NCBI GenBank assembly: GCA_945861435.1
Contig: CAMAUX010000039.1
Coordinates: forward strand, 1-50,805
Reading direction: 5' to 3'
Source: Chthoniobacter flavus
GTDB lineage: Bacteria; Verrucomicrobiota; Verrucomicrobiia; Chthoniobacterales; Chthoniobacteraceae
DNA length: 50,805 nt
Shown in pieces: positions 1,518-49,480 of the stretch. The notes under the pieces were generated by a model. It was given only the letters and a program-made list of their open reading frames with translations. It was not told the origin of the DNA and did no database searches. The stretch's first letter is position 1. The number at the start of each line of letters is the position of its first letter. A program made the translations under genes and the position numbers.

Positions 1518-3830
1518 TTAGCGAGCGGCCGCGGTTGCGGATGCAGAGGGGGCAAGTCGGTCTGCGGGGATGGCGAGGAGACGCTTGGACTCGGTCAGCA
1601 GCCATGAGGCGTCGCGGAAGGGTTGGAAGCCGATGTCCTGCCAGCGCACGAGGCCTTTGGCGTCGATGAGGAAGGCGCCGTGGAGAGGGGTTTTCTCAAA
1701 GTCGTCGTAGGCACGGTAGGCTTTGAAGGTGGCGAGTGTGGAGTCTGAGACGATCGGAAAATCGAAGCCGTCTTCCTTGGTGGCTTTGGAAAGGGTCCAG
1801 TGGAGGCGGGAGGGTTCATCGGTGCTGACTGCGACGATGGAGATGCCGGCTTCGCGGTATTGTTTGGTGAAGGGAGCGAAGATGTTGAGCTGTTCGATGC
1901 AGTGCACGCAGCCGCTGCCGAGGTAGAAGAGGACGAGGACGGGTTTGCCGCGGAATTGGTCGAGGGAGAGGGTGCCCCATTGGTCGTCGGGCAGCTTCCA
2001 TGAAGGAGCGGGTGAGGGATGCCAGCGGAAGGGGCCGAGTTGTGCGAGGGGCGGGCGCTCGCCGAGGTCAGTGGCGGGCTTGCGTGGGATGCGCCAGTCG
2101 CTGGGAAGCTTCTCGTTCTTTGCGATGGGATCGAGGCGGGTGAGGAAGGCGCAGTCGGTATCTGCGTCTGCGGCGAGGACGCGGACCTTTTGGAAAGTGT
2201 CGACGGCCTCCTTGTTTTTGCCGGCACGCCAAAGGAGGTGGGCGAGGCTGGCCATGGGGGTGAGGAGTTGGTCGTCGGGCTTTGCGGCGTCGCGTGCGAG
2301 TTCGAGGGCCTTGTCGGTCTGGCCAAGCTCCATGCGGAGGCGGGCCTGGCGTTCGGCGGGGATGTCCTTGGAGAGGTCGGCTTGTTGGATGGCGTCCTCG
2401 ATTCTGCCTTCCTTGAGGGCGAGCATGGAGCGGAGTTCGGCGAGAGCGGACTCGGCGTTTTCGATCTTGGTGGAAAGGCGGCGCACGGCTTGTCCGATGG
2501 CCTTGACGATGTCGTCCTCGGATTTTTTGTCGGCCTTGGCCTTGGCTTCTGCAGCGAGCATTTCGGTGATGCGTTGCTGGGCGAGGTCGGCGGCGAATTT
2601 CTCGAACTGGACGATTTGTTCGCGGCCCTTGGCGAGGCTGGCCTTGTCGCCCTTCTTCGCTGCGTGGAGGTGGGCGAGGCCGAGGAGGCGGCGTCGGCGT
2701 GTTTCGTCAGCTGGATCGGCCTCTGGGGCGGGATCGAGATAGCCGGAGGATACGAGGGTGATGGTTTCCTCCCAGAGCTCGTATTGGAGGAGGGTGTTGA
2801 GGAGTTCGTCGCGGCCGGAGGCGTAGCTGCTTTTTTTGGCGCTGCTGATGCGGGGGAGTTCGAGGAGGTTCTTGGAGAGATCGAGGGCTTCGTGGACGCG
2901 GCCGAGGTGGCGGAAGTCTTGGATGAGCCAGGCGTTGTTGTGCGCGTAGTTGTGGATCTGGTCGGGCATGATCCTGTGGGCGATCATCTGGGCGTGGTCG
3001 ACGCGTGCGGCGGCTTCCTGCTGCCATGCGGCGTCTGCATAACGGTGGAGGCCGGAGTAGGTGTGGCCGGCCATGTGCCACATGTGGGCGATGCCGGGGG
3101 CTGAAGGGCCCGAGCGGGCGGCGGCTTGGAGAGCGTGCTCGTTGGATTTACCGGAGTTCCAGAGGTGGATGAGGTAGTGGTTGGGGCCGGGGTGGAGGGG
3201 GTTTTTGTCGAGGACCTGCTGCGCGAGGGCGTCGACAGCCTGTCGGCTGGGAAGGGGGAGGTTGTGGGTTTTGTTATCCCAGAGTTGGAAGACGAGGAGG
3301 GCTTTGGCTTCGAGGTCGTCGGGATGTTTAAAGCTGATGTCCTCGAGGGCATCGATGAGGGCGTTGCGGCGGGCGCGGTCCTCCTTTTTGTCATCGGCGT
3401 GGTAGGCGCTCCAGGCCTTGATCCAGAGCTGTTCGCGTGGGCTGGCCTTGGCCTGGAGTTCGGCGGCTTTCTTGATGAATTTTGCGGCGCGCGCTGGGGT
3501 GTTGATGTTGGCCATGGCCATGCCCCAGTAGGCCATGGCGCAGTCGGGATCGAGGGCGGCGACTTGGCGGAAGGAGCGTTCGGCTTCGAAGTACCAGAAG
3601 CCGTGGAGCTGGCCGACGCCTTGGTTGAAGAACTCTGCGGCCTCGGGCTTGGAGGTGGTGATTGGGAAGTGGATGCGGCCCACGCCGGGCATGAGAACGG
3701 CCGCTTGGCGGGGGCCTTCGTTGAAAGCGTCGCCGTGTGTGGAGTGGCCGGGAGCGGGGTCCGCAGCGTGCAGGGAGGCGGCGAGGAGAAGGAAGAGGGC
3801 GTGGCGGGCGTGCAGGGGAACGCGTTTCAT
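1518..3830 (-). CDS. Exported TPR protein with C-terminal redoxin domain
   Basis: A 770-residue protein with an N-terminal signal peptide (KR followed by a hydrophobic run ending near SLHAAD). Most of it is helical and repeat-like, with TPR-type pairs such as AERSFRQVAALDPDCAMAYW near residue 80 and further repeats through the middle. The last ~170 residues form an AhpC/TSA-thioredoxin-like domain: GKPVLVLFYLGSGCVHC, with the CVHC pair at about residues 641-644, followed by IVAVSTDEP and a TPLHGAFLID strand. Such fusions occur in PVC bacteria and are thought to act as periplasmic thiol-redox or scaffold proteins; the substrate is unknown. The gene is monocistronic, with no close partner on its strand. 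Confidence 0.8.
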   Translation of the reverse strand: MKRVPLHARHALFLLLAASLHAADPAPGHSTHGDAFNEGPRQAAVLMPGVGRIHFPITTSKPEAAEFFNQGVGQLHGFWYFEAERSFRQVAALDPDCAMAYWGMAMANINTPARAAKFIKKAAELQAKASPREQLWIKAWSAYHADDKKEDRARRNALIDALEDISFKHPDDLEAKALLVFQLWDNKTHNLPLPSRQAVDALAQQVLDKNPLHPGPNHYLIHLWNSGKSNEHALQAAARSGPSAPGIAHMWHMAGHTYSGLHRYADAAWQQEAAARVDHAQMIAHRIMPDQIHNYAHNNAWLIQDFRHLGRVHEALDLSKNLLELPRISSAKKSSYASGRDELLNTLLQYELWEETITLVSSGYLDPAPEADPADETRRRRLLGLAHLHAAKKGDKASLAKGREQIVQFEKFAADLAQQRITEMLAAEAKAKADKKSEDDIVKAIGQAVRRLSTKIENAESALAELRSMLALKEGRIEDAIQQADLSKDIPAERQARLRMELGQTDKALELARDAAKPDDQLLTPMASLAHLLWRAGKNKEAVDTFQKVRVLAADADTDCAFLTRLDPIAKNEKLPSDWRIPRKPATDLGERPPLAQLGPFRWHPSPAPSWKLPDDQWGTLSLDQFRGKPVLVLFYLGSGCVHCIEQLNIFAPFTKQYREAGISIVAVSTDEPSRLHWTLSKATKEDGFDFPIVSDSTLATFKAYRAYDDFEKTPLHGAFLIDAKGLVRWQDIGFQPFRDASWLLTESKRLLAIPADRLAPSASATAAAR

Positions 3831-8373: not shown

Positions 8374-9981
8374 CTAGTCGATGTGCGCGAGGCTGGCGTT
8401 CACGAAGCCTTTGAAGAGCGGGTGGGGCTGGTTGGGCTTGGACTTGAACTCAGGATGGTACTGGCAGGCGAGGTACCATGGGTGGTCGCGCAGTTCGATG
8501 AGTTCGACCAAGGATCCGTCGGGCGAGGTGCCGCTGAACACGAAGCCCTTGGCTTCCATGGCTTCGCGGTACTTGAGGTTGAATTCGTAGCGGTGGCGGT
8601 GGCGTTCGGAGATTTCGCTGGAGCCGTAGACCTTGTGGGCACGGGTGCCTTCGGCGATTTTGGTGGGCCACGTGCCCAAGCGCATGGAGGCGCCCTTGTC
8701 GGTGACGTCGCGCTGAGTTTCGAGCAGGTCGATGATGGGATGTTCGGGCTTGGGATCGAACTCGGTGCTGTTGGCACCCTTGAGGCCGCAGACATTGCGG
8801 GCGAATTCGATGCTGGCCACCTGCATGCCAAGGCAAAGGCCAAGGAAGGGGACCTTGTTCTCGCGCGCAAACTGGGCGGCGCGGATTTTGCCCTCGACGC
8901 CGCGGTCGCCGAAGCCGCCTGGGACGAGGACGCCGGCGACGTCGACGAGGAGGGAGGAGGGGTCCTTGGTTTCGAGGTCCTCGGCGTCGACGAGAAGGAG
9001 GTCGATACCGCAATCGAGACTGGCGCCTGCGTGGGTGAGGGATTCGTAGATGGACTTGTAGGCGTCCTGGAGTTCGATGTACTTGCCGACGACGGCGATC
9101 TTCACGCGTTTCTTGGGCTTGATCACGCGGTCCACGAAGCGGCGCCAGTTGGTGAGGTCTGCGGGCGGAGCGGTGATGCTGAGGGCGCGGCACACGATGT
9201 CGTCGAGTTTCTCAGCCTGAAGCATGAGAGGCATCTGATAGATGGTGTGGTCGACGTCGCGGCCTTCGATCACGGCATCGCGCGGGACGTTGCAGAAGAC
9301 GGAGAGTTTCTGGCGGACTTCGTCGCCGAGCGGGAGTTCGGTGCGGCAAAGGAGGACCTGGGGTTGAAGGCCGATCTCGCGCAGTTTGGCGATGGATTGC
9401 TGGGAGGGCTTGGTTTTGAGCTCTCCGGCGGCGCGGATGTAGGGGACGAGGGTGACGTGGAGGATGATGGCGTTCTGCGGGCCGACCTCGAGGATGAACT
9501 GGCGGATGGCTTCGAGGAAGGGAAGGCCCTCGATGTCGCCGGTGGTGCCGCCGATTTCGGTGATGAGCACGTCGCAGGGTTGCTCGGAACCGAGTTTGCG
9601 GAGGCGCGCTTTGATTTCGTCGGTGATGTGCGGAATGACTTGGACGGTCTTTCCGAGATAATCCCCACGGCGTTCGCGGGCGAGGACGGTTTCGTAGACC
9701 TGACCGCTGGAGGTGGAGTTGGAGGCGGAGAGGACGGTGTGGGTGAAGCGTTCGTAATGGCCGAGGTCGAGATCGGTTTCGGCGCCGTCATTGAGCACGT
9801 AGACTTCGCCGTGCTGGAAGGGGTTCATTGTGCCCGGATCCACGTTGAGGTACGGGTCGAATTTCTGGAGGTTCACCTTGAGGCCGCGGTGTTCCAGCAG
9901 AGTGCCCAGCGAGGCGGCTGCGAGCCCCTTGCCGAGGGAGCTCACGACACCGCCCGTGACGAAGATATATTTGATGCTCAT
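8374..9981 (-). CDS. pyrG: CTP synthase
   Basis: A 535-residue CTP synthase, which makes CTP from UTP, ATP and glutamine. The synthetase domain opens with [16 protein letters not shown] and contains [19 protein letters not shown] and [11 protein letters not shown]. The C-terminal class I glutamine amidotransferase domain carries [12 protein letters not shown], the nucleophile in GLCLGMQ (Cys about 383) and the YHPEF catalytic pair near the end. Length and order match the family. A GGAGG lies 17-18 bases before the ATG, farther than usual. It is flanked by a same-strand transporter upstream and the porin downstream, with gaps too large to call an operon. Confidence 0.97.
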
Positions 9982-10587
9982 GGAAGAAAAAGTGGGTGCC
10001 TCCTGATTAGAAGAGGCCGGAAATCTAAACCTTCAAACAAAGCCTAACTTACCATGGATGGCTATAGGGATTGTTGGGGAAACTCCGCGGGAGCTTCCTT
10101 CCGGAGACACGGCGACCTGTGTCCCGTTTTTTGCGGGACGAAGAAGGGCGGTCGTGGTGTCTAATGACCAACGATTGAGTCAGCGGGGTTTAGTCGACGG
10201 CTGTCTGCGGTTGTCGGCGAGCCGTGGCGCACAGTCCGGACTGTTCAACGCCTCATTGATGGTGCAGCGCAGCGGAATCTGCGGATTTGCGAAGCTGGCG
10301 GGTCAGCAGCAGTGTCGCTCAGAGACGGATGGGGCACCTGTTTCGAGGCGAGTGTTTGAGGGGAGTCTGACGTGGCGCGGTGGGGTGGCGATGATGCGCT
10401 GGGTCTGAGTGGTGGGAGGATGAGTGGAGGAGGTGCTGTTTTTCTGGAGAGACCCTTTGAGGATGCGCATGGGTTCGGAGTGGGGCATGAGATCGCCGTG
10501 ATCCTCGATTTCAAAGCGCTTGGTGGGTGTGCGAAAGACGAGTCCGTGCCGTTCAAGGTTTGATGACGAGGGGGCGGGTGGTGCTCC
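9982..10587. other. Long intergenic region upstream of pyrG
   Basis: No supported gene. It should hold the pyrG promoter and leader and the end of the transporter transcript. A hairpin GTCCCG-N7-CGGGAC lies at 10121-10139, overlapping a weaker pair GACAC/GTGTC at 10106-10124; only one can form at a time. Several open frames exist on both strands but lack starts, ribosome sites or protein-like composition. Confidence 0.55.
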
Positions 10588-12045
<1,458 letters not shown>

Positions 12046-12351
12046 GGAGGGATGGGGGTGCGGTAGTTGGGGGGTGGGGGGTGAAGCGGTGAGCGAGATT
12101 GCGGTCCCCGGGTTGTGGCGGGCAACGCTGGATGTTTGTGGGCGGTGTGCCGTGAGGTGTTCTGCGAGATGAAGGGGTAGGGACTGGTCTGCTGGAAACT
12201 TTCTCGAAAAGGCGATCTCGGTGGCTTAGGGAGTGCGCCTGTGAAACGCGGGCGCGTTTTTTTCATGACTCGATGAAGCAACTACTGACACGCGCAATCC
12301 TTCGCCGGGTGGATTGCCGGGCGCATTGCCGGGCGCATCTTGCCCCTGCCC
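12046..12351. other. Divergent intergenic region between the peptide transporter and bioA
   Basis: About 306 bases that must contain the promoters for the leftward transporter and rightward bioA. It contains a terminator-like hairpin (12245-12263), a small upstream ORF (12273-12362) and two tandem copies of a 12-base unit, ATTGCCGGGCGC, around 12313-12337. No further gene is seen. Confidence 0.5.
12245..12263 (+). terminator. Terminator-like hairpin upstream of bioA
   Basis: On the plus strand AACGC-GGGC-GCGTT forms a short stem followed by a run of T. It faces toward bioA rather than away from a gene end, so if real it would act as an attenuator or block read-through from the left. The stem is short, so confidence is low. 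Confidence 0.3.
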
Positions 12352-12362
12352 ATGGCTGCTGA
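12273..12362 (+). CDS. Possible upstream ORF / leader peptide overlapping bioA start
   Basis: An ATG at 12273 opens a 29-residue frame (begins MKQLLTRAILRR, contains the repeat CRAH-CRAH) whose TGA lies 9-11 bases inside bioA, in a different frame. It follows the terminator-like hairpin. This arrangement could couple or attenuate bioA translation. There is no clear ribosome binding site, and the repeat DNA by itself could explain the open frame. Confidence 0.25.
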   Translation: MKQLLTRAILRRVDCRAHCRAHLAPAHGC

Positions 12363-13782
12363 GAAAGGCATGGACGGGGAGATGGTGCGTCTGGATCGTG
12401 CCCATGTCTGGCACCCCTTCACGCCCTTCTCCACATGGATGGACGAGGGTTACGAGCCCACCGTGATTGTGCGCGGGCGCGGTTCGCGGCTTTTTGATGT
12501 GGAGGGGCGCGAGTATCTGGACGGCAATTCGTCGATCTGGGTGAACCTGCACGGGCACTGCAATGCGCAGATCGACCGGGCGATCCGTGCGCAGTTGAAG
12601 CGCATTGCGCACAGCTCGTTTCTGGGGCTCACCAACGAGGTGGCGCCGATGCTCGCGGCGCGGTTGTTGGAGTATGCGAGGCCCCAAGGGCAGCACGGGA
12701 CCGATGGCGGCGGGTTCGAGCGCGTGTTCTTTTCCGATGACGGTTCCACCGCGGTGGAGGCGGCGATCAAGGTGGTTTATCAGGCGTTCCAGATGACGGG
12801 ACAGCAGGAGCGTACGCAGTTCGTTTCGCTCGGGCGCGGCTATCATGGGGACACGGTCGGAGCGATGAGTGTGGGCCACAGTGCGGTGTTTCACGGGGCT
12901 TACCGCGGATTGATGTTTTCGAGTGGCGAGGCGATGTCGCCGGCGTGCTATCGCTGTCCTTTCAACCGTGCGGCTCCCGAACGAGCGGATGCGCGCACGA
13001 CGCGCCGGTGCGGCTTTGAATGCGTGGGGCAGTTTGCCCAGCGTGTGGAGGAGGCTGGTGGGCGCTTTGCTGGGGCGGTGCTTGAGCCCGTGGTGCAGGG
13101 GGCTGCGGGCATGGTGATGCATCCCGAGGGCTATCTCTCCAAGGTGGCGGACATCGTGCACGACGCAGGAGGAAAGCTGATCTTGGACGAGGTGATGACG
13201 GGCTTCCACCGCACCGGACGGGCGATGGCGTTCCATGCGGAGTCGTGCCAGCCCGATGTGGTGGCGCTGGCCAAGGGGCTCACGGGCGGGTATCTGCCTC
13301 TGGCTGCGACACTCGTGAAGGCGGATCTCGTGGAGGCGTTCATGGGCGGCCCGGAGCGCACGTTTTACCACGGGCACAGCTATAGCGGGAATCAGTTGGG
13401 ATGCGCTGCCGCGCTGGCCAATCTGGACTTGCTGGAGGCACCCGGCTTTGGGGCGAAACTCGAGCGCCTTATCGCGCGGCTTGGGCGGGCGGGACAGCGT
13501 TTCTGGGCGCATCCGCATGTGGGAGATGTGCGGCAGCAGGGGATGATCCTTGCGGTGGAGTTGGTGGAGGACTGGCGTTCGCGCAAGCCCTTCGCTCCTG
13601 AGAAGCGCCTCGGTTGGCGGGTGAGCGAGGCTGCCAAGAAGCACGGACTCCTCACACGACCGGCCGGCGATGTGCTCATCCTGATGCCCCCGCTTTCCAC
13701 ATCCGCCGCCGATGTGGAGCGGATGGTGGAGGCGTGCTATCGGGCGCTGTGCGACGTCCTGCCTGTGTCCGCCGGGGTGTGA
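12352..13782 (+). CDS. bioA: Adenosylmethionine-8-amino-7-oxononanoate aminotransferase
   Basis: A 476-residue class III aminotransferase. It uses S-adenosylmethionine as amino donor to make 7,8-diaminopelargonate in biotin synthesis. BioA hallmarks are the N-terminal HVWHPFTPF (residues 18-26), GNSSIWVNLHGH, the PLP segment with ILDEVMTGFHRTG (Asp279) and the lysine in ALAKGLTGGYLPLA (Lys308). I placed the start at the ATG at 12352; a TTG at 12340 and an ATG at 12370 are alternatives and none has a good ribosome binding site. A cysteine cluster near 199-224 (CYRCPFN ... CGFEC) is characteristic of many BioA proteins. No other biotin gene is nearby. Confidence 0.9.
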   Translation: MAAEKGMDGEMVRLDRAHVWHPFTPFSTWMDEGYEPTVIVRGRGSRLFDVEGREYLDGNSSIWVNLHGHCNAQIDRAIRAQLKRIAHSSFLGLTNEVAPMLAARLLEYARPQGQHGTDGGGFERVFFSDDGSTAVEAAIKVVYQAFQMTGQQERTQFVSLGRGYHGDTVGAMSVGHSAVFHGAYRGLMFSSGEAMSPACYRCPFNRAAPERADARTTRRCGFECVGQFAQRVEEAGGRFAGAVLEPVVQGAAGMVMHPEGYLSKVADIVHDAGGKLILDEVMTGFHRTGRAMAFHAESCQPDVVALAKGLTGGYLPLAATLVKADLVEAFMGGPERTFYHGHSYSGNQLGCAAALANLDLLEAPGFGAKLERLIARLGRAGQRFWAHPHVGDVRQQGMILAVELVEDWRSRKPFAPEKRLGWRVSEAAKKHGLLTRPAGDVLILMPPLSTSAADVERMVEACYRALCDVLPVSAGV

Positions 13783-13896
13783 TTAAAAGGGCGGGGCAAG
13801 GTGGCGATCTTCCGTGAGCGTCTCAGCCTGGGGCGAATCCGCGGTAAACGCTCTGGGTGCACGGCGGGTTTGCGGTGGATGTCCGCCAGAGGATTG

Positions 13897-14112
13897 CTAT
13901 CGGCTGAGACCAACCGACAGCTCGTCCACAAGGCGAGGACGGCGTCCGTCCTCTTCGGTTATGACCGCCTCGGATCTGTCTGGGTTGGGGTCCAGAACGA
14001 TCTTGCCATCGACGATCTCAAAGGAAATGACCGCGCATGCAGGCGGGCCAAGCTTCTTGCGAATTTCCAAAGGAATCACCACCTGTTCCTTGCTTGAAAG
14101 GGGCGCTGTCAT
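13897..14112 (-). CDS. AbrB/SpoVT-type DNA-binding protein (antitoxin-like, orphan)
   Basis: A 71-residue protein. The first 45 residues have the swapped-hairpin AbrB pattern: SSKEQVVIPLEIRKKLG, then ISFEIVDGKIVL. Proteins of this size are usually antitoxins of MazE/VapB type or small regulators. No PIN, MazF or other toxin frame lies next to it on either side, so it appears to be an orphan. GTG at 14115 and TTG at 14118 are alternative starts. The frame converges on bioA. A -10-like TAAAAT ends only six bases before the ATG, suggesting a leaderless transcript. Confidence 0.75.
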   Translation of the reverse strand: MTAPLSSKEQVVIPLEIRKKLGPPACAVISFEIVDGKIVLDPNPDRSEAVITEEDGRRPRLVDELSVGLSR

Positions 14113-14118
14113 CACCAA

Positions 14119-14141
14119 ATTTTACTCGTCTTACTGCGAGT
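14119..14141 (-). promoter_or_regulatory. Promoter and palindrome before the AbrB-type gene
   Basis: On the minus strand, ACTCG-N8-CGAGT (14124-14141) directly abuts and overlaps a -10-like TAAAAT (14119-14124). AbrB-type antitoxins commonly repress their own promoters through such short palindromes, so this is a candidate operator. The arms are only 5 bp long. Confidence 0.35.
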
Positions 14142-44197: not shown

Positions 44198-44881
44198 ATG
44201 AAAAAGTACCTGATTAGAAACCTGATGATCTGCGGCGTTGCGATGTCCCTTGGAGCGTGTGCGGCCGTGATGACGCCCGAGCGTGTTGCGAAGCTGCCCG
44301 CGCCGATTCGTGCGGCGTTGGAGCCGATGATGGCGAGGCAGGCGGCGATTGCCCGCAAGTTCACCTCCGGCACGAAGAAGATGTTGGAAGGCTACTCCCT
44401 GGTGGCCGAGGCGATTGGTTTGAAGAAGGAGGCGGCCACGCTGCGTGCGGAGGCGGCAGCGCTTAATGCGGGATCTTCACTGAATGACTCGCGCAAGGCG
44501 ATGAGTCGCTCGGAGGGGCTCATGGGCGAGGTGCGTGCAAAGATTGGTGCATCGAAGGGTGTGACCTTGGCGAGCAAGGAGCGTTTTGCGGAGGGTGTCC
44601 GAGCGAAGAATGAAGCGTATATGATTGAGGTGGCGCTTGCCACCGAGGCGTCCATCGAGGCGGTGCGCGGGGTTCAGTTGATCGCCAAGGCGTCGCCATT
44701 GGACAAGATTCTGCTGACCACGACTCTGGATCCGCTGTTCTTCTTTGCGAAGGATGTGCCCCGCTTCCTCGAGCAGGAGCGCAAGTTCGAGGAGAACTGC
44801 CAGAAGTTCGCGAAGGATTACAGCATCGTGCTTCCGAAGAGGGAGTTGCCGACGCCTAAGCTGCAGTCGCTTTCGTTCTAA
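44198..44881 (+). CDS. Helical lipoprotein, first gene of the envelope cluster
   Basis: A 227-residue protein with a lipoprotein signal (LIRNLMICGVAMSLGAC, lipidated Cys at 20). The mature part is almost entirely helical and rich in Ala, Lys and Glu (PAPIRAALEPMMARQAAIARK, then KKEAATLRAEAAALNAG), with one more hydrophobic patch (ILLTTTLDPLFFFAKDV) near residue 180. I recognise no family. A coiled-coil or four-helix bundle is plausible. A hairpin follows the stop codon, so it may be expressed separately from, or more strongly than, the next four genes. No clear ribosome binding site precedes the ATG. Confidence 0.75.
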   Translation: MKKYLIRNLMICGVAMSLGACAAVMTPERVAKLPAPIRAALEPMMARQAAIARKFTSGTKKMLEGYSLVAEAIGLKKEAATLRAEAAALNAGSSLNDSRKAMSRSEGLMGEVRAKIGASKGVTLASKERFAEGVRAKNEAYMIEVALATEASIEAVRGVQLIAKASPLDKILLTTTLDPLFFFAKDVPRFLEQERKFEENCQKFAKDYSIVLPKRELPTPKLQSLSF

Positions 44882-44908
44882 GGAGCTCCTGCTTTCAAGA
44901 GCCATTCT

Positions 44909-44945
44909 GGGCGGGTCCTTAGTGAGTGCTTAGGGCCCGCCCTTT
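44909..44945 (+). terminator. Hairpin after the first lipoprotein gene
   Basis: GGGCGGGTCC pairs with GGGCCCGCCC over a 14-base loop (eight or more G-C/A-T pairs) and is followed by TTT. It is a terminator or partial attenuator between the first lipoprotein gene and the following four-gene run. Confidence 0.6.
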
Positions 44946-44973
44946 GGTTCCTGAAAACCCTGTCTTTCTTGCC

Positions 44974-46434
44974 ATGCGTTGCGCCGCTTTCGTCCGCCTT
45001 GTCGTGAGGCGGGCTGTGGTCTGCCTGATTCTGCCGGGCCTCTTTGGTATTTGTGCGGTGCATGGGCAGGAGGCGGGTGAGGCGGCGATTCCCATTAAGT
45101 TTTCGGGGCTGTGGCTGAGTGGAAAGTTTGTGGATATCGATGCGGACTTTCCGGTGGGCAGGGAGTTTATCGTGAAGGAGGGAGACGACGCATCGGCTGC
45201 CCTCACCCGAGAGATTCTGGTGCGGCTGCGCGAGATGAGTAAACCCGGGAGGGGGCGTTTGGTGGATGCGCTGGCGTCCGATGACTACACGCCGGATGCG
45301 TCGCAGGGTCGCGGATTGCTGATGGCGTGCGTGGTGAACCAAGAGTTTGTGGACAGGGTGACGATCGGTGGGGTGGTCAAGTTGACGGCGCAGGTGGGGT
45401 TTGACCTTGTGGTCTGTGATTTCACTTCGCGTCGGGTGTTGTTTGTGATGCCCGGGTGGGCGGGGGAGTACTTCAGCGCAGGCGATCTGGCCAAGAAGTT
45501 CGGAGGGGACGAAGGCAATGCGTTGAGATGGGTGTATCGCAATAAACTCGCGGGGGAGTTTGTGCGAGCGGCGGCGAATTTCACGCCGGAGCTCCGGGGG
45601 GACGGGCGTCTGGGGGTGACGAAAGTGACGATTTTCGATGAGGCAAAGGCGGTGCTGCCCAAGCAGTTTGCGGGCGACCGGGCAGAGGATTACATCAGCA
45701 GGCTGGCGGTTTCCAATCTGTCGGAGGGGTTTGGAATTCGCATGGGCGGCAAGGTCGCGCAGGAGAAGGCCTACCGAGCGGGTGCGAGCGCGGGAGGCGA
45801 GGGAATGAGCATGGAGTCAGCAAGGAAGAGTCAGGTTTCCGGGTTGGCAATCGCGCCTTTGGATTTGCCTGGGATTGGTTGCATGCCGTTATCGCGGGGT
45901 AACGAGATGATGTTTTGCGGAATGAGGGAGGGGCTGTCGGATGCGATGCGCGTGGCGGTGCAGAGCGAGAGGGAGGCACGGGGCGGGATGGCATTTGTGC
46001 TACCCAAGCCGGAGTACGAGGTGGAGGTGACGGTGCCGGCGTTCCGGACCGTTTCGACTGGGGACCAGGCGGCAGGGAAAGTGGTGCAGTACTGCAGTTA
46101 TGCGCGGGTTGCGGTGAAGCGTGGGGAGAAGGTGATTTACAGCAGTCAGCACGATTTCAACACGGCCGGTCTGATTCCGAGGGGGTCGCCGGAGAAGACC
46201 CAGTGGGTCTCGTACGAGGACTCGGTGTGCGGTCTTTTTCTGCGTGCGGGCGAGAAGATCCGGGAGGCGGCTTTTCTTGCGAAGGCGGTGGACGAGACCA
46301 AGCCGGCGGTGCGGGTGATCGATCCGTCTGCGGTCAAGGCGATGCTCCGTGATTGTGCTCCCTGGCTGCTGCAGAGCGGCGACGCGCCGAAAGATTTGAA
46401 TCCAAACCCCAAGACCAAACCCAAGAAGAAATAA
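44974..46434 (+). CDS. Exported protein of unknown family in the envelope cluster
   Basis: A 486-residue protein. I start at the ATG 44974, which gives a signal peptide (FVRLVVRRAVVCLILPGLFGICAVHG); the frame is open 16 codons earlier. The mature part is mixed alpha/beta: KFSGLWLSGKFVDIDADFPVGREF, ILVRLREMSKPGRGRLVDALAS, FDLVVCDFTSRRVLFVMPGW, AEDYISRLAVSNLSEGFGIRMG, then YEVEVTVPAFRTVS and YCSYARVAVKRGEKVIYSS. The C-terminus is basic (TKPKKK). I cannot assign a family. It begins a tight run of four genes (7-base gap to the next). Confidence 0.75.
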   Translation: MRCAAFVRLVVRRAVVCLILPGLFGICAVHGQEAGEAAIPIKFSGLWLSGKFVDIDADFPVGREFIVKEGDDASAALTREILVRLREMSKPGRGRLVDALASDDYTPDASQGRGLLMACVVNQEFVDRVTIGGVVKLTAQVGFDLVVCDFTSRRVLFVMPGWAGEYFSAGDLAKKFGGDEGNALRWVYRNKLAGEFVRAAANFTPELRGDGRLGVTKVTIFDEAKAVLPKQFAGDRAEDYISRLAVSNLSEGFGIRMGGKVAQEKAYRAGASAGGEGMSMESARKSQVSGLAIAPLDLPGIGCMPLSRGNEMMFCGMREGLSDAMRVAVQSEREARGGMAFVLPKPEYEVEVTVPAFRTVSTGDQAAGKVVQYCSYARVAVKRGEKVIYSSQHDFNTAGLIPRGSPEKTQWVSYEDSVCGLFLRAGEKIREAAFLAKAVDETKPAVRVIDPSAVKAMLRDCAPWLLQSGDAPKDLNPNPKTKPKKK

Positions 46435-46441
46435 CAATCCA

Positions 46442-47539
46442 ATGAAACGAGTACTGAGTGTGATTCTTGCCTGCGCACTGTCGCCCGCCTTGTGGGCAGC
46501 TGCGCCGATTCCCGTCAACGGCCGTGGGGAAGCCGACAATGAGTCGCTCATTGGCGGGCCCTCTGCGGATGTGGTGTATCTGGCGCGGCAGAATGCGCGG
46601 ATCAACGCGATTGAGAAGGCTTTGGAGAATCAGTCTGAAGCGTTGCGTGAACAGTTCAAGACGGTGGGGCGCAACTTGAAGGTCGAGGACTACGAGTCAA
46701 AGAAGATCCTGACCGAGACGAAGAAGTACAAGGAGGAGGTGGACGCGAAGGAGAAGAAGGTCCGTGCATATTTCGAGGGCAAGTTGGATATGAGTGCGCT
46801 GCGGGATGCACTCAACGCCATGCCTGCCATTGGAACGGACGTGAAGCTTTCGAAGATTGGTGCTGCGCTCTTTTTCACCGGGCGGATCACTGCGGCGAAT
46901 ATCGTCACTTTGGCGGACGTCACCAAGAGTGGCTCTAAAGCGAGGATGAAGGAGGCGGAGGGGAAAATGACCGCGACGGAGAATGGGACGAGTGTGTCGG
47001 AAGTGTCGGAGGAGAAGTCGAAGGAAAACATGAAAGTCACATCGGCCGACACTGCCGATAAGGCGAAGTATGAGCTCGACCCACCGGGCAAGGAAAACTT
47101 TGGCACCGGGTTGCTGGAGCGTTTTTCTTCCAAGGGGTTCGAGGGTCTTGTGGAAGGTGGAGTTCTGGACAGTTCCAAGGCGATTGATGAGGACTTTGGA
47201 GCGGGCAAGTCAGTGGAGGCAGCGCACCTCAAGGCTGCGATCAAGGAGGTGAAAGAGGGGGATCCTGAGATCAAGTATGTGATCGTGGGGAGCGTGGATT
47301 TCACGATTCCCTCGAAGGATCCCGTGACAGGAAAGCACAAGACGGCTGGGACGGTGAATGGGAAGGTTTATGACATCTCCAAGCCATCCTTTCCGAAGGT
47401 GGTGGCGGCAGTGGGGCCAGTGACCAAATCCATGGTGGCAGACACGCAGGCTGATGCGCGCACGCGGGTCATCGCGGTGCTCGCTGAAGAGGCGGCGGAC
47501 GACATCATCACGAAGCTCGGCAACAAGAAGGGTCTATGA
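46442..47539 (+). CDS. Exported protein with CsgG/FlgT-like C-terminal region
   Basis: A 365-residue protein with a signal peptide (RVLSVILACALSPALWA). A helical, coiled-coil-prone segment follows (VYLARQNARINAIEKALENQSEALREQFKTVG). Toward the end comes a strand-helix part, IKYVIVGSVDFTIP ... GTVNGKVYDISKPSFPKVVAAVG ... DARTRVIAVLAEEAADDIITKL. That order of a YVIVGSV strand, an amyloid- or motor-type beta unit and a terminal amphipathic helix resembles CsgG and FlgT middle domains by recollection, not by search. The ATGA at its end overlaps the next lipoprotein start, so translation is coupled. Confidence 0.7.
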   Translation: MKRVLSVILACALSPALWAAAPIPVNGRGEADNESLIGGPSADVVYLARQNARINAIEKALENQSEALREQFKTVGRNLKVEDYESKKILTETKKYKEEVDAKEKKVRAYFEGKLDMSALRDALNAMPAIGTDVKLSKIGAALFFTGRITAANIVTLADVTKSGSKARMKEAEGKMTATENGTSVSEVSEEKSKENMKVTSADTADKAKYELDPPGKENFGTGLLERFSSKGFEGLVEGGVLDSSKAIDEDFGAGKSVEAAHLKAAIKEVKEGDPEIKYVIVGSVDFTIPSKDPVTGKHKTAGTVNGKVYDISKPSFPKVVAAVGPVTKSMVADTQADARTRVIAVLAEEAADDIITKLGNKKGL

Positions 47540-48930
47540 AAAAAGCCAATCTGCTGATTGTGGTGCCTATGAGCGCGGTGACGCTCGGTCTCCTTGGCGC
47601 CTGCGACATCAAGCCTGCGGGTGGTGATGCCAAGGCTGCCGCGACTGAGAGTGCACCGAAATCGAATGACAACACTCCCAAGGTGAAGGTGACGTCGGTG
47701 GGGACGGGAGAGAACCGGGATCGTGCGTTGGTGGATGCGTGCCGTCTGGCGGTGTCCAAGGTGCATGGGACCCGTGTGATGGGGAAGTTGGGGAACACGG
47801 ACCAGATGGACTTCAAGTTTGATGTGGCGGGCAACTTCACGGAGAGCGTGGGTTCCGGGCCGAAGACTCAGAAGGATGGCGAGGTCTCCGGTATGGGGCG
47901 CGTGTATGGAGTGAAGGACGACACGGCGATCTCCTTCGCTGGTCTGCTGCTGAACTTCAGCATTCTGAATGAGGGCAAGCAGCCCGGTGAGAGCACGGCA
48001 CAGAAGAACACCGCCCGGTGGCGGGTGGAGATTGAGGCGGATGTGTTGGACAAGATGCCGGACCGTTTTGCGGGTCGCCAGGCGGTGGTATTGCCCAGTC
48101 TGGATCGGATTGTGAAGAGCCTTTCGGTGGATAACGCCGGTCCGAAGCTGGTGCAGGAGGTGGCGCAGGAGGTGAAGGGGGGGCTGGAGTCGACGTTTGC
48201 CAACCATCCGCAGTTCGTGCTGCTGGAAAGAAACAGCGAGGACGTCCTCGATAAGGAGGCGGCGCGCGCGGGCGGTGGGAATGCGGCTACTCGGGAGGAG
48301 AGCAAGCTGGGCGGGCAGAAGGTGGCGGATATTGTAGTGGAGTTGGAGAGCGAGCCTCTTTCTGTGAAGGTGGATACGACGAAGTTCGATCTGGGAGCGC
48401 CTTCATTGCAGAAGGTCCAGATCGCGGTGCGTGGCAGCATTCGTTTGCTGGACATGTCGACGCGAGGGGAGATCTGCCGGGTGCCTTTTGAGGCGGGCAA
48501 TAAGAAGCCGGTGGTTTCTCCAGGGGATGTGGAGCCTGCGGTGGCGAAGGCTGCCGGGGAGTTCCGCACGACGCTTGCGGATTCCATGCGCCGGGCGCGC
48601 ATCGGTCTGTTGGGGTATCTTGGGGTGGCAAATCTGCTGTCGGACGGAACTGGTGGTTGGCGCTTGGTGGGCGGGCTCGATCCCCAATTGATCAAGAGTG
48701 GGGACCGGGTGACGCTCCTGAAGGAGGAGGGGCAGGGCAAGTGGGTGCCCTTCAGCGACACCACGGTATCGCAGAGCGGGATGACTGTGACGTTCTCCAA
48801 GAAGATGGAGGAAGTGAAGTCAGGTCAGGTGGTTTCGTTCCGCATTGAGGCGCCCATTGAAGAGGCGGCGCCGGCGGCGGCAGCAGAACCCAAGGGGCCT
48901 TCACTCAAGGACCGCATCAAATTTGACTAA
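47536..48930 (+). CDS. Lipoprotein with FlgT/CsgG-like features
   Basis: A 464-residue protein with a lipobox (MSAVTLGLLGACD, Cys23). Residues ~50-80 have the pattern VTSVGTGENRDRALVDACRLAVSKVHG, similar to the FlgT/LPP20 N-terminal domain, which remodels repeated-name helices. A middle domain with VVLPSLDRIVKSLSVDN, VVELESEPLSVKVD and VQIAVRGSIRLLDMSTRGEICRVPFEA resembles the CsgG-type core. A C-terminal beta domain (IKSGDRVTLLKEEGQGKW ... VVSFRIEAP) resembles a FlgT C-terminal or outer-membrane collar domain. The start overlaps the previous stop by four bases. It could be the outer-membrane-anchored core of the cluster. Confidence 0.7.
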   Translation: MKKANLLIVVPMSAVTLGLLGACDIKPAGGDAKAAATESAPKSNDNTPKVKVTSVGTGENRDRALVDACRLAVSKVHGTRVMGKLGNTDQMDFKFDVAGNFTESVGSGPKTQKDGEVSGMGRVYGVKDDTAISFAGLLLNFSILNEGKQPGESTAQKNTARWRVEIEADVLDKMPDRFAGRQAVVLPSLDRIVKSLSVDNAGPKLVQEVAQEVKGGLESTFANHPQFVLLERNSEDVLDKEAARAGGGNAATREESKLGGQKVADIVVELESEPLSVKVDTTKFDLGAPSLQKVQIAVRGSIRLLDMSTRGEICRVPFEAGNKKPVVSPGDVEPAVAKAAGEFRTTLADSMRRARIGLLGYLGVANLLSDGTGGWRLVGGLDPQLIKSGDRVTLLKEEGQGKWVPFSDTTVSQSGMTVTFSKKMEEVKSGQVVSFRIEAPIEEAAPAAAAEPKGPSLKDRIKFD

Positions 48931-48940
48931 TAGTAATCCC

Positions 48941-49480
48941 ATGAAGAAAAATTCCATTTTCATTGCTGTTCCGTTTGCGCTGCTCCTTGGGGCCTGTGCG
49001 CATAAGACGGAGGTGATCGTTGTCGACGCTTCCGGTGCCGCGGGTGGCGCTACCAAGTCCAAGAGTGGGGCGGTTGGGAGCGGAACGAGTTCCCGTGGAC
49101 AAAGTGCTGCGGGTGGAGGCGAAGGTGGTGCCGCGGTTGGCAGTGGAGGCGGTACCCGTGGACATGGTGCTGCGGGTGGGGGAGAGGGCGGTGGCGGGAG
49201 TGGCGGGGGGGGGACGAAGGTCGCGGCGGCCTCGAGGGTGGTGGCGCTCGGCGTCTGGTCTGGCGAGGACAAACATCAACGGATCACGCTGAAGATTAGT
49301 TCCAACGGTCATCTCGTGTTTACCAATGCGGCCGGGGACAATGCCGGGCAATGGGAGGCACGGGGCGGTGACCAGTTTACTGTCATGATCGGCGGCTCAA
49401 CTGGCGTCTTCACGATGTTGGATCAATCCACTGCCACCTTGAAGATCGGCGGCGCGACGGTGGAGATGAGACGCCGTTAA
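48941..49480 (+). CDS. Lipoprotein with Gly/Ser-rich linker and small beta domain
   Basis: A 179-residue protein. The ATG at 48941 begins a lipoprotein signal (FIAVPFALLLGAC, Cys19); the longer open frame before it overlaps the previous gene and is not used. After the lipidated cysteine comes a low-complexity Gly/Ala/Ser linker of about 65 residues. A compact C-terminal domain of about 80 residues follows (VVALGVWSGEDKHQRITLKISSNGHLVFTNAAGDNAGQWEARGGDQF), with a lipocalin- or calycin-like strand pattern. I recognise no named family. It follows the preceding lipoprotein gene by 10 bases. The linker DNA is repetitive, so length variation between strains is likely. Confidence 0.7.
   Translation: MKKNSIFIAVPFALLLGACAHKTEVIVVDASGAAGGATKSKSGAVGSGTSSRGQSAAGGGEGGAAVGSGGGTRGHGAAGGGEGGGGSGGGGTKVAAASRVVALGVWSGEDKHQRITLKISSNGHLVFTNAAGDNAGQWEARGGDQFTVMIGGSTGVFTMLDQSTATLKIGGATVEMRRR

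Follow-up and report, generated by a model that had tools for sequence, protein, structure and literature searches.

What do five consecutive genes for secreted-looking proteins build together when none of the products belongs to a recognised family? The question is raised by a cassette on contig CAMAUX010000039.1 from Chthoniobacter flavus (assembly GCA_945861435.1), of which the whole stretch of 50,805 nucleotides was analysed and is called the window here. An earlier reading, made from the letters of the DNA alone and referred to below as the sequence-only reading, had described the five genes (genes 1 to 5) as an outer-membrane assembly or secretion module of a new type, with CsgG- and FlgT-like parts and no match to any family as a whole. 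We show that the cassette is conserved as a gene set under purifying selection and that genes 2 and 4 have predicted folds of the CsgG/FlgT kind, and we tentatively favour an assembly at the outer membrane that generally serves a purpose other than the flagellum.

Family searches agree that the proteins stand apart. None of the five window proteins reached a cut-off in Pfam or NCBIfam, and PADLOC, a search for defence genes which prints no cut-off, returned one weak match, to gene 3 (E 0.0023, 14.6 bits). The relatives of these proteins gave scattered weak matches for which cut-offs were likewise not printed: the best E-values were 0.0017 for gene 1 (10 members), 0.018 in Pfam and 0.039 in NCBIfam for gene 2 (5 and 10 members), and 0.024 for gene 3 (5 members). 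Among PDB sequences, neither the single proteins nor gene 2 and gene 3 profiles brought up a convincing relative, and a literature search, judged on titles and the beginnings of abstracts, found no account of such a cassette.

The cassette occurs as a set

Of 213 genomes of the order Chthoniobacterales, five have all five genes in identical order (the window genome and loci L006, L007, L008 and L017), and genes 1 to 4 occur together in five further genomes outside the order in the same class (L024, L025, L026, L027 and L028); these ten are called carriers below. Among 57 close genomes, 4 had a match to gene 4, and 5 of the 213 had one to gene 2. A gene 2 profile built from the five order genomes alone matched 6 of 387 genomes of the phylum, namely, the window genome and the five new ones. 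Next to gene 2 in the new loci, order-only profiles found gene 1 in five of five, gene 3 in four and gene 4 in four, with E-values that refer to a small set of open reading frames from nine loci. The genes are arranged 1-2-3-4 in L024 and L025 and 2-3-1-4 in L026, L027 and L028.

Two carriers depart from this pattern in gene 3 or gene 4. In L026 the gene 4 profile matched the protein in the gene 3 position (E 7e-4), which is provisionally assigned to gene 3 because of its position and alignment, and the gene 4 slot holds a CsgG protein (55.1 bits). This part of L026 (9215-11321, after gene 1) consists of a PEGA-domain gene, just under its cut-off, and then the CsgG protein, which also has a weak FlgT_C match. 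In L008 gene 4 has diverged and is preceded by two additional secreted-looking genes. Beside the L008 cassette (genome G020) three more genes lie at 10796-14130 on the minus strand, of which one encodes a CsgG/FlgT_M/LpoB/PEGA-like protein and another a CsgG/GNA1162-like protein, both by weak Pfam matches under the cut-offs, while the third is LPP20-like by eye with no Pfam match; they are possibly a second related set.

Gene 5 had no match outside the order when the carrier loci were searched with its profile. Directly after gene 4 in L024 (10309-10611) and L025 (9691-10089), both f15 carriers, there is an open reading frame for a proline-rich protein with a lipobox-like start; it did not match the gene 5 profile either, and it looks as if a linker lipoprotein were needed in that slot.

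The deeper profile of gene 3 matched 7 of the 387 phylum genomes, the six gene 2 carriers and G409 with a partial N-terminal match, and the deeper profile of gene 2 matched the same six. These two profiles include rows from the carriers, whose recovery is by construction, and the result is the scarcity of other matches. The gene 1 profile matched 4 of 174 genomes, all of them carriers, and in the family of G515 gene 2 was found in 2 of 150 genomes, both of which were carriers already found. Thus, within the phylum as sampled, carriers were the only genomes with matches to genes 1, 2 and 3, one partial domain match aside, and the cassette is rare, patchily distributed and stays together as a set. 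The sequence-only reading had suggested a survey of co-occurrence and had held that genes found separately would speak against a common system; no such separation was seen for these three genes beyond that partial match.

Purifying selection was examined between the two closest relatives, L006 and L007. The nonsynonymous (dN) and synonymous (dS) divergences were 0.052 and 1.17 for gene 1, 0.103 and 2.51 for gene 2, 0.053 and 1.99 for gene 3, 0.086 and 1.61 for gene 4, and 0.235 and 1.78 for gene 5. Although dS is near saturation, the proportion of nonsynonymous differences (pN) is far below that of synonymous differences (pS) in every case, and all five genes are under purifying selection.

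Gene 4 is FlgT-like by its predicted fold

The AlphaFold model of gene 4 has a mean predicted local distance difference test score (pLDDT) of 64.8, with values of about 80-90 across much of the middle domain. By this model gene 4 is FlgT-like, with an SHS2-like N-terminal domain, an anticodon-binding-like middle domain and a small C-terminal beta domain. When Foldseek was run on the model, as the sequence-only reading had proposed, the best PDB match was FlgT (3w1e, E 5.3e-12 over 440 columns at 12-13% identity), a known part of the flagellum, followed by an LPHT-ring chain (8z5n_0, E 7.4e-11) and then by CsgG (7brm_A, E 2.7e-6), with HpaA, PelC and LptE further down. VIA comparison of structures, which covered residues 50-364 and whose lists are dominated by the middle domain, gave, behind HpaA, the LPHT chain at Z 10.5 (149 aligned, root-mean-square deviation (rmsd) 5.0), CsgG at Z 10.3 (157 aligned, rmsd 5.5) and FlgT 3w1e at Z 10.1 (213 aligned, rmsd 11.8, residues 50-364); the C-terminal domain is placed by its position and strands. 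Gene 4 thus shares its domain order with FlgT of the Vibrio H-ring (3w1e) and of the LPHT ring (8z5n), but it differs in its low identity and in the absence of any Pfam FlgT_N, FlgT_M or FlgT_C match over the curated cut-offs, and the cassette differs in its partner genes, in its presence in carriers where FlgI was not found and in two distant gene 4 relatives that seem to have no N-terminal domain.

In topology the N-terminal domain resembles the basal-disk SHS2 proteins FlgP and LPP20, and it has an insert between the helix and the second strand. One account (PMC12222027) describes the SHS2 fold as common to FlgP, Lpp20 and the N domain of FlgT, and reports a correlation, in that family, between ring formation and an insertion that follows the SHS2 helix and precedes the second strand. 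FlgP, unlike gene 4, is a small single-domain protein. By alignment the insert is 60 residues long in the window protein, where the model has low confidence; among the relatives, it measures 42-51 residues in the four from the order, 49 in L025 and 42 in L027.

With sequence profiles it is CsgG that comes first. The gene 4 profile had E. coli CsgG as its top match among PDB sequences, a weak one (E 0.012) that covers CsgG residues 56-176, and a chain of 9HMF named 'Lipoprotein, putative' was not significant (E 0.22). Among nine gene 4 relatives, Pfam CsgG was over its cut-off of 20.8 bits in two (L027, 35.4; L026, as given above), under it in three (L028, 20.0; L006, 19.7; L007, 14.9) and without a match in four (L017, L008, L024 and L025), as it was in gene 4 of the window.

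If these matches reflect function, the cassette could encode a CsgG-like secretion pore for a substrate other than curli, in which hairpins of gene 4 would lie in the outer membrane and the products of genes 1, 2, 3 and 5 would be helpers like CsgE and CsgF. The gene 4 segment that faces the first membrane hairpin of CsgG is of nearly equal length. In the gene 4 model, however, a strand at 311-321 is followed by a strand at 326-329 and a helix at 332, a spacing that seems to leave too little room for the second CsgG hairpin. The lipobox of gene 4 is not conserved, its best fold match is FlgT, which is not known as a pore, and it has an N-terminal domain in addition to the one shared with CsgG. 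The curlin repeat (PF07012) was found in none of the ten carrier genomes, whereas the control was matched in E. coli; the curli system itself is rejected on this result, which also bears out the sequence-only reading that no csgA-like subunit is nearby. Since the second hairpin seems to lack room and gene 4 lipidation is not conserved, a FlgT-like collar appears a better analogy for gene 4 than a CsgG pore, and we consider the pore distinctly doubtful. Thus, of the module of a new type first proposed, a conserved envelope module with FlgT- and CsgG-type domains stands, a secretion function by way of a pore is less likely, and the domain types are known ones.

Gene 2 has the same kind of domain

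Gene 2 had been passed over in the sequence-only reading, although by its model it too has a domain of the CsgG/LptE/PelC type in its C-terminal half. The AlphaFold model (mean pLDDT 68.6, predicted template modelling score 0.67) has the order strand-helix-strands-helix twice. Structure matches of the C-terminal half were Cj1090c (Z 11.7), CsgG (11.7 and 11.5), PqiC (11.3), PelC (10.7), the LPHT-ring chain (10.5) and LptE (9.8 at best); the VIA lists are dominated by this half and hardly cover the N-terminal one. Foldseek gave modest E-values for the model, the best being 5.7e-4. We also compared 21 domain pairs of genes 2, 3 and 4 with hhalign, each against 8 column shuffles. The C-terminal half of gene 2 and the middle domain of gene 4 were the sole pair well clear of the shuffles (25.8 against 13.9 for the best of eight, at a probability of only about 10%); a few others were slightly above, such as the middle domain of gene 4 with the C-terminal part of gene 3 (18.2 against 14.9). 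Within gene 2, no sequence match between the N-terminal and the C-terminal half was seen by hhalign (12.3 against 12.1), and full-length sequence comparisons among genes 2, 3 and 4 gave nothing firm. The model thus supports an anticodon-binding-like fold, as in gene 4, for the C-terminal half of gene 2, and both halves are probably of this kind.

Proteins with this fold also suggest another function, that of an adaptor of the LptE/PelC/PqiC/LpoB type. Its partner, either an outer-membrane barrel or a peptidoglycan synthase, would have its gene elsewhere and would be plugged or activated by the adaptor. Gene 2 matches PqiC, PelC and LptE at Z of about 9-11, the values of gene 4 against PelC and LptE are about 8-10, and there are weak LpoB matches among the gene 4 relatives. 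PqiC, PelC, LptE and HpaA have the fold of the C-terminal half of gene 2, and the last three also that of the middle domain of gene 4, but the cassette differs from them in gene context and has no sequence family match to them over a cut-off. It speaks against an adaptor that gene 4 of the window genome is built like FlgT, with three domains, and no outer-membrane barrel or penicillin-binding protein was among the 10 flanking proteins covered by a scan that was not exhaustive. We regard an adaptor as an unlikely account of the cassette.

Relation to the flagellum

One account (PMC6375700) assigns the H-ring proteins FlgO, FlgP and FlgT to motors driven by Na+, with Vibrio as an example. A further explanation is that the cassette is an H-ring-like accessory of the flagellar outer ring in Chthoniobacterales. 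It is consistent with this that FlgI was found in five of the ten carriers, all of them within the order and including the window genome, as against 34 of 213 order genomes overall; the crude probability of all five being FlgI-positive is 8e-5 if relatedness is ignored. This overlap is expected and is not counted as evidence because most genomes of the genera g4 (11 of 12) and g1 (3 of 4) are FlgI-positive. FlgI and the cassette are moreover on separate contigs in all five genomes. The sequence-only reading that no flagellar gene is nearby thus holds locally and not for the window genome as a whole. FlgI was the sole flagellar marker searched for, and none of the five carriers outside the order, whose genomes are 97-100% complete, had a match to it. 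In addition, 29 of the 34 FlgI-positive order genomes do not have the cassette, and the same is true of 15 of the 20 that have a completeness of 90% or more and a contamination of 5% or less. A flagellar role as the general function is rejected on this distribution of FlgI among carriers and order genomes; a role at the flagellum limited to Chthoniobacterales is possible, and we rate an H-ring-like accessory there as improbable.

Genes 1, 3 and 5

The sequence-only reading had seen CsgG/FlgT-like parts in genes 3 and 4. For gene 4 this is borne out by the fold, and for gene 3 there is sequence-level support. Gene 3 scores 15.6 bits against Pfam FlgT_N (E 0.024), below the cut-off of 28.8, and its profile matches a protein of G409 (L035 1414-2676, plus strand; E 5.6e-4) which itself reaches 28.7 bits against the same cut-off and could act as a bridge; G409 had no match to gene 2. 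Gene 3 is thus weakly linked to FlgT_N. Adjoining the L017 cassette (genome G103), a gene at 2635-3813 on the minus strand encodes an N-terminal FlgT_N-like domain (19.1 bits).

Gene 1 is present in all ten carriers. At the sequence level, nothing could be detected that relates genes 1 and 5 in fold to the rest of the cassette. That this might mean unrelated secreted proteins clustered by chance can scarcely be credited, because the set occurs in 10 genomes of several families, in changed order and with genes 1 to 4 never lost.

A tentative model

Taken with some reserve, the explanation we favour is that the cassette encodes a periplasmic assembly associated with the outer membrane and made of FlgT/FlgP-type and CsgG/LptE-type domains, generally for a non-flagellar purpose; we would put its chances a little short of even. 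Gene 4 would be the core of the assembly. A further FlgT_N-like protein would come from gene 3, and gene 2 would supply a protein of which one half, and probably both, are anticodon-binding-like, while the presumed lipoproteins of genes 1 and 5 would anchor the whole in the outer membrane. The products, if secreted and lipidated as their N-termini suggest, may bind each other and form a closed ring or collar beneath the outer membrane, whose client could be an envelope-spanning machine or a surface polymer. A ring or collar is, by analogy, the most economical picture because gene 4 has the SHS2 insert, its partners are anticodon-binding-like and FlgT_N-like, and two lipoproteins are adjacent.

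Several observations weigh against this model. The full-length template modelling scores between gene 4 and FlgT are low (0.24/0.30) and the rmsd is 23; therefore the orientation and arrangement of the FlgT domains are not matched by the gene 4 model. The top VIA match of the middle domain is HpaA (Z 12.0, 161 aligned, rmsd 3.0), an adhesin according to its database entry. The insert shrinks to 33 residues in L024, and in L028 and L026 the gene 4 product starts shortly before the CsgG domain and by eye seems to be without the SHS2 domain. Of nine aligned gene 4 proteins, judged by eye, only that of the window has a clear lipobox, with a possible cysteine in L025 and L028. Mean pLDDT is 65-69 for the models of genes 4 and 2, with low confidence in the insert, and a ring is read from these single-chain predictions, which contain no oligomer. 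The anticodon-binding-like fold is also common in small proteins that form no rings, such as LptE and the N-terminal domain of TolB. The neighbourhood of the cassette yielded no candidate for a client, a polymer or an energy source.

Layout and surroundings of the locus

The features are collected in Table 1. The sequence-only reading of five consecutive rightward genes is confirmed in its coordinates; signal-peptide-like N-termini are visible by eye on all five products, and the three lipoboxes it reported, at 44198, 47536 and 48941, can be seen. The intergenic gaps from gene 1 to gene 5 are 92, 7, -4 and 10 bases, as that reading had it for the last four genes. Gene 2 could also start at a GTG at 44926, which would give 502 aa; the ATG at 44974 is most likely the start because it aligns with the starts of the gene 2 relatives. 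Promoter and terminator scans of the locus stayed near chance level.

Table 1. Genes and predicted domains of the cassette in the window (aa, amino acids)
Feature	Positions	Strand	Description
Gene 1	44198-44881	+	227 aa; putative lipoprotein, lipobox SLGAC; TLDPLFFF motif kept within the order
Gene 2	44974-46434	+	486 aa from ATG; secreted-looking; strand-helix-strands-helix order in each of two halves
Gene 2, C-terminal half	45598-46296	+	Residues 209-441; predicted anticodon-binding-like fold, CsgG/PqiC/PelC/LptE/FlgT-middle type
Gene 3	46442-47539	+	365 aa; secreted-looking; N-terminal FlgT_N-like domain at about residues 20-132
Gene 4	47536-48930	+	464 aa; FlgT-like by model, three domains; lipobox LLGAC in the window genome
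Gene 4, N-terminal SHS2/FlgT_N-like domain	47680-48048	+	Residues 49-171; helix and second strand separated by an insert of 60 residues
Gene 4, middle domain	48073-48627	+	Residues 180-364; predicted anticodon-binding-like, CsgG/FlgT_M-like
Gene 4, C-terminal beta domain	48628-48846	+	Residues 365-437; occupies the FlgT_C position, on the basis of strands in the model
Gene 5	48941-49480	+	179 aa; putative lipoprotein, lipobox LLGAC; Gly/Ser-rich linker, small C-terminal domain

Among the nearest flanking genes, which were scanned, those on the left encode HlyD and MarR proteins and that on the right a DUF2267 protein, all on the minus strand and unrelated to the cassette; an RND-type pump, recognised by eye, adjoins the HlyD and MarR genes. 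The surroundings in other carriers are varied. A glycosyltransferase (by eye) lies about 3 kb from gene 1 in L006, a Ser/Thr kinase precedes the cassette in L025 and a GYF_2-domain protein follows it there (10430-11554), and in L028 the cassette is followed by an SPFH/Band 7 domain protein with a GYF_2 match under the cut-off (9937-11232).

Implications

Predicted folds are now at hand for genes 2 and 4, two proteins without a Pfam or NCBIfam match at cut-off. The sequence-only reading had allowed that structure predictions might give unrelated known folds; the models of genes 2 and 4 are instead of the expected superfamily. A bolder version of the explanation favoured here is that Verrucomicrobiota use the domain set of the H-ring and basal disk (FlgT/FlgP) together with that of CsgG for a non-flagellar ring of the outer membrane that scaffolds an envelope-spanning machine. 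We hold this to be rather unlikely as it stands; if it is true, the parts of flagellar collars would belong to a wider, reusable family of ring builders. That a conserved cassette shows the domain layout of FlgT, also in genomes where FlgI was not found, offers an entry point to the origin of the flagellar outer rings and to other roles that such rings may have.

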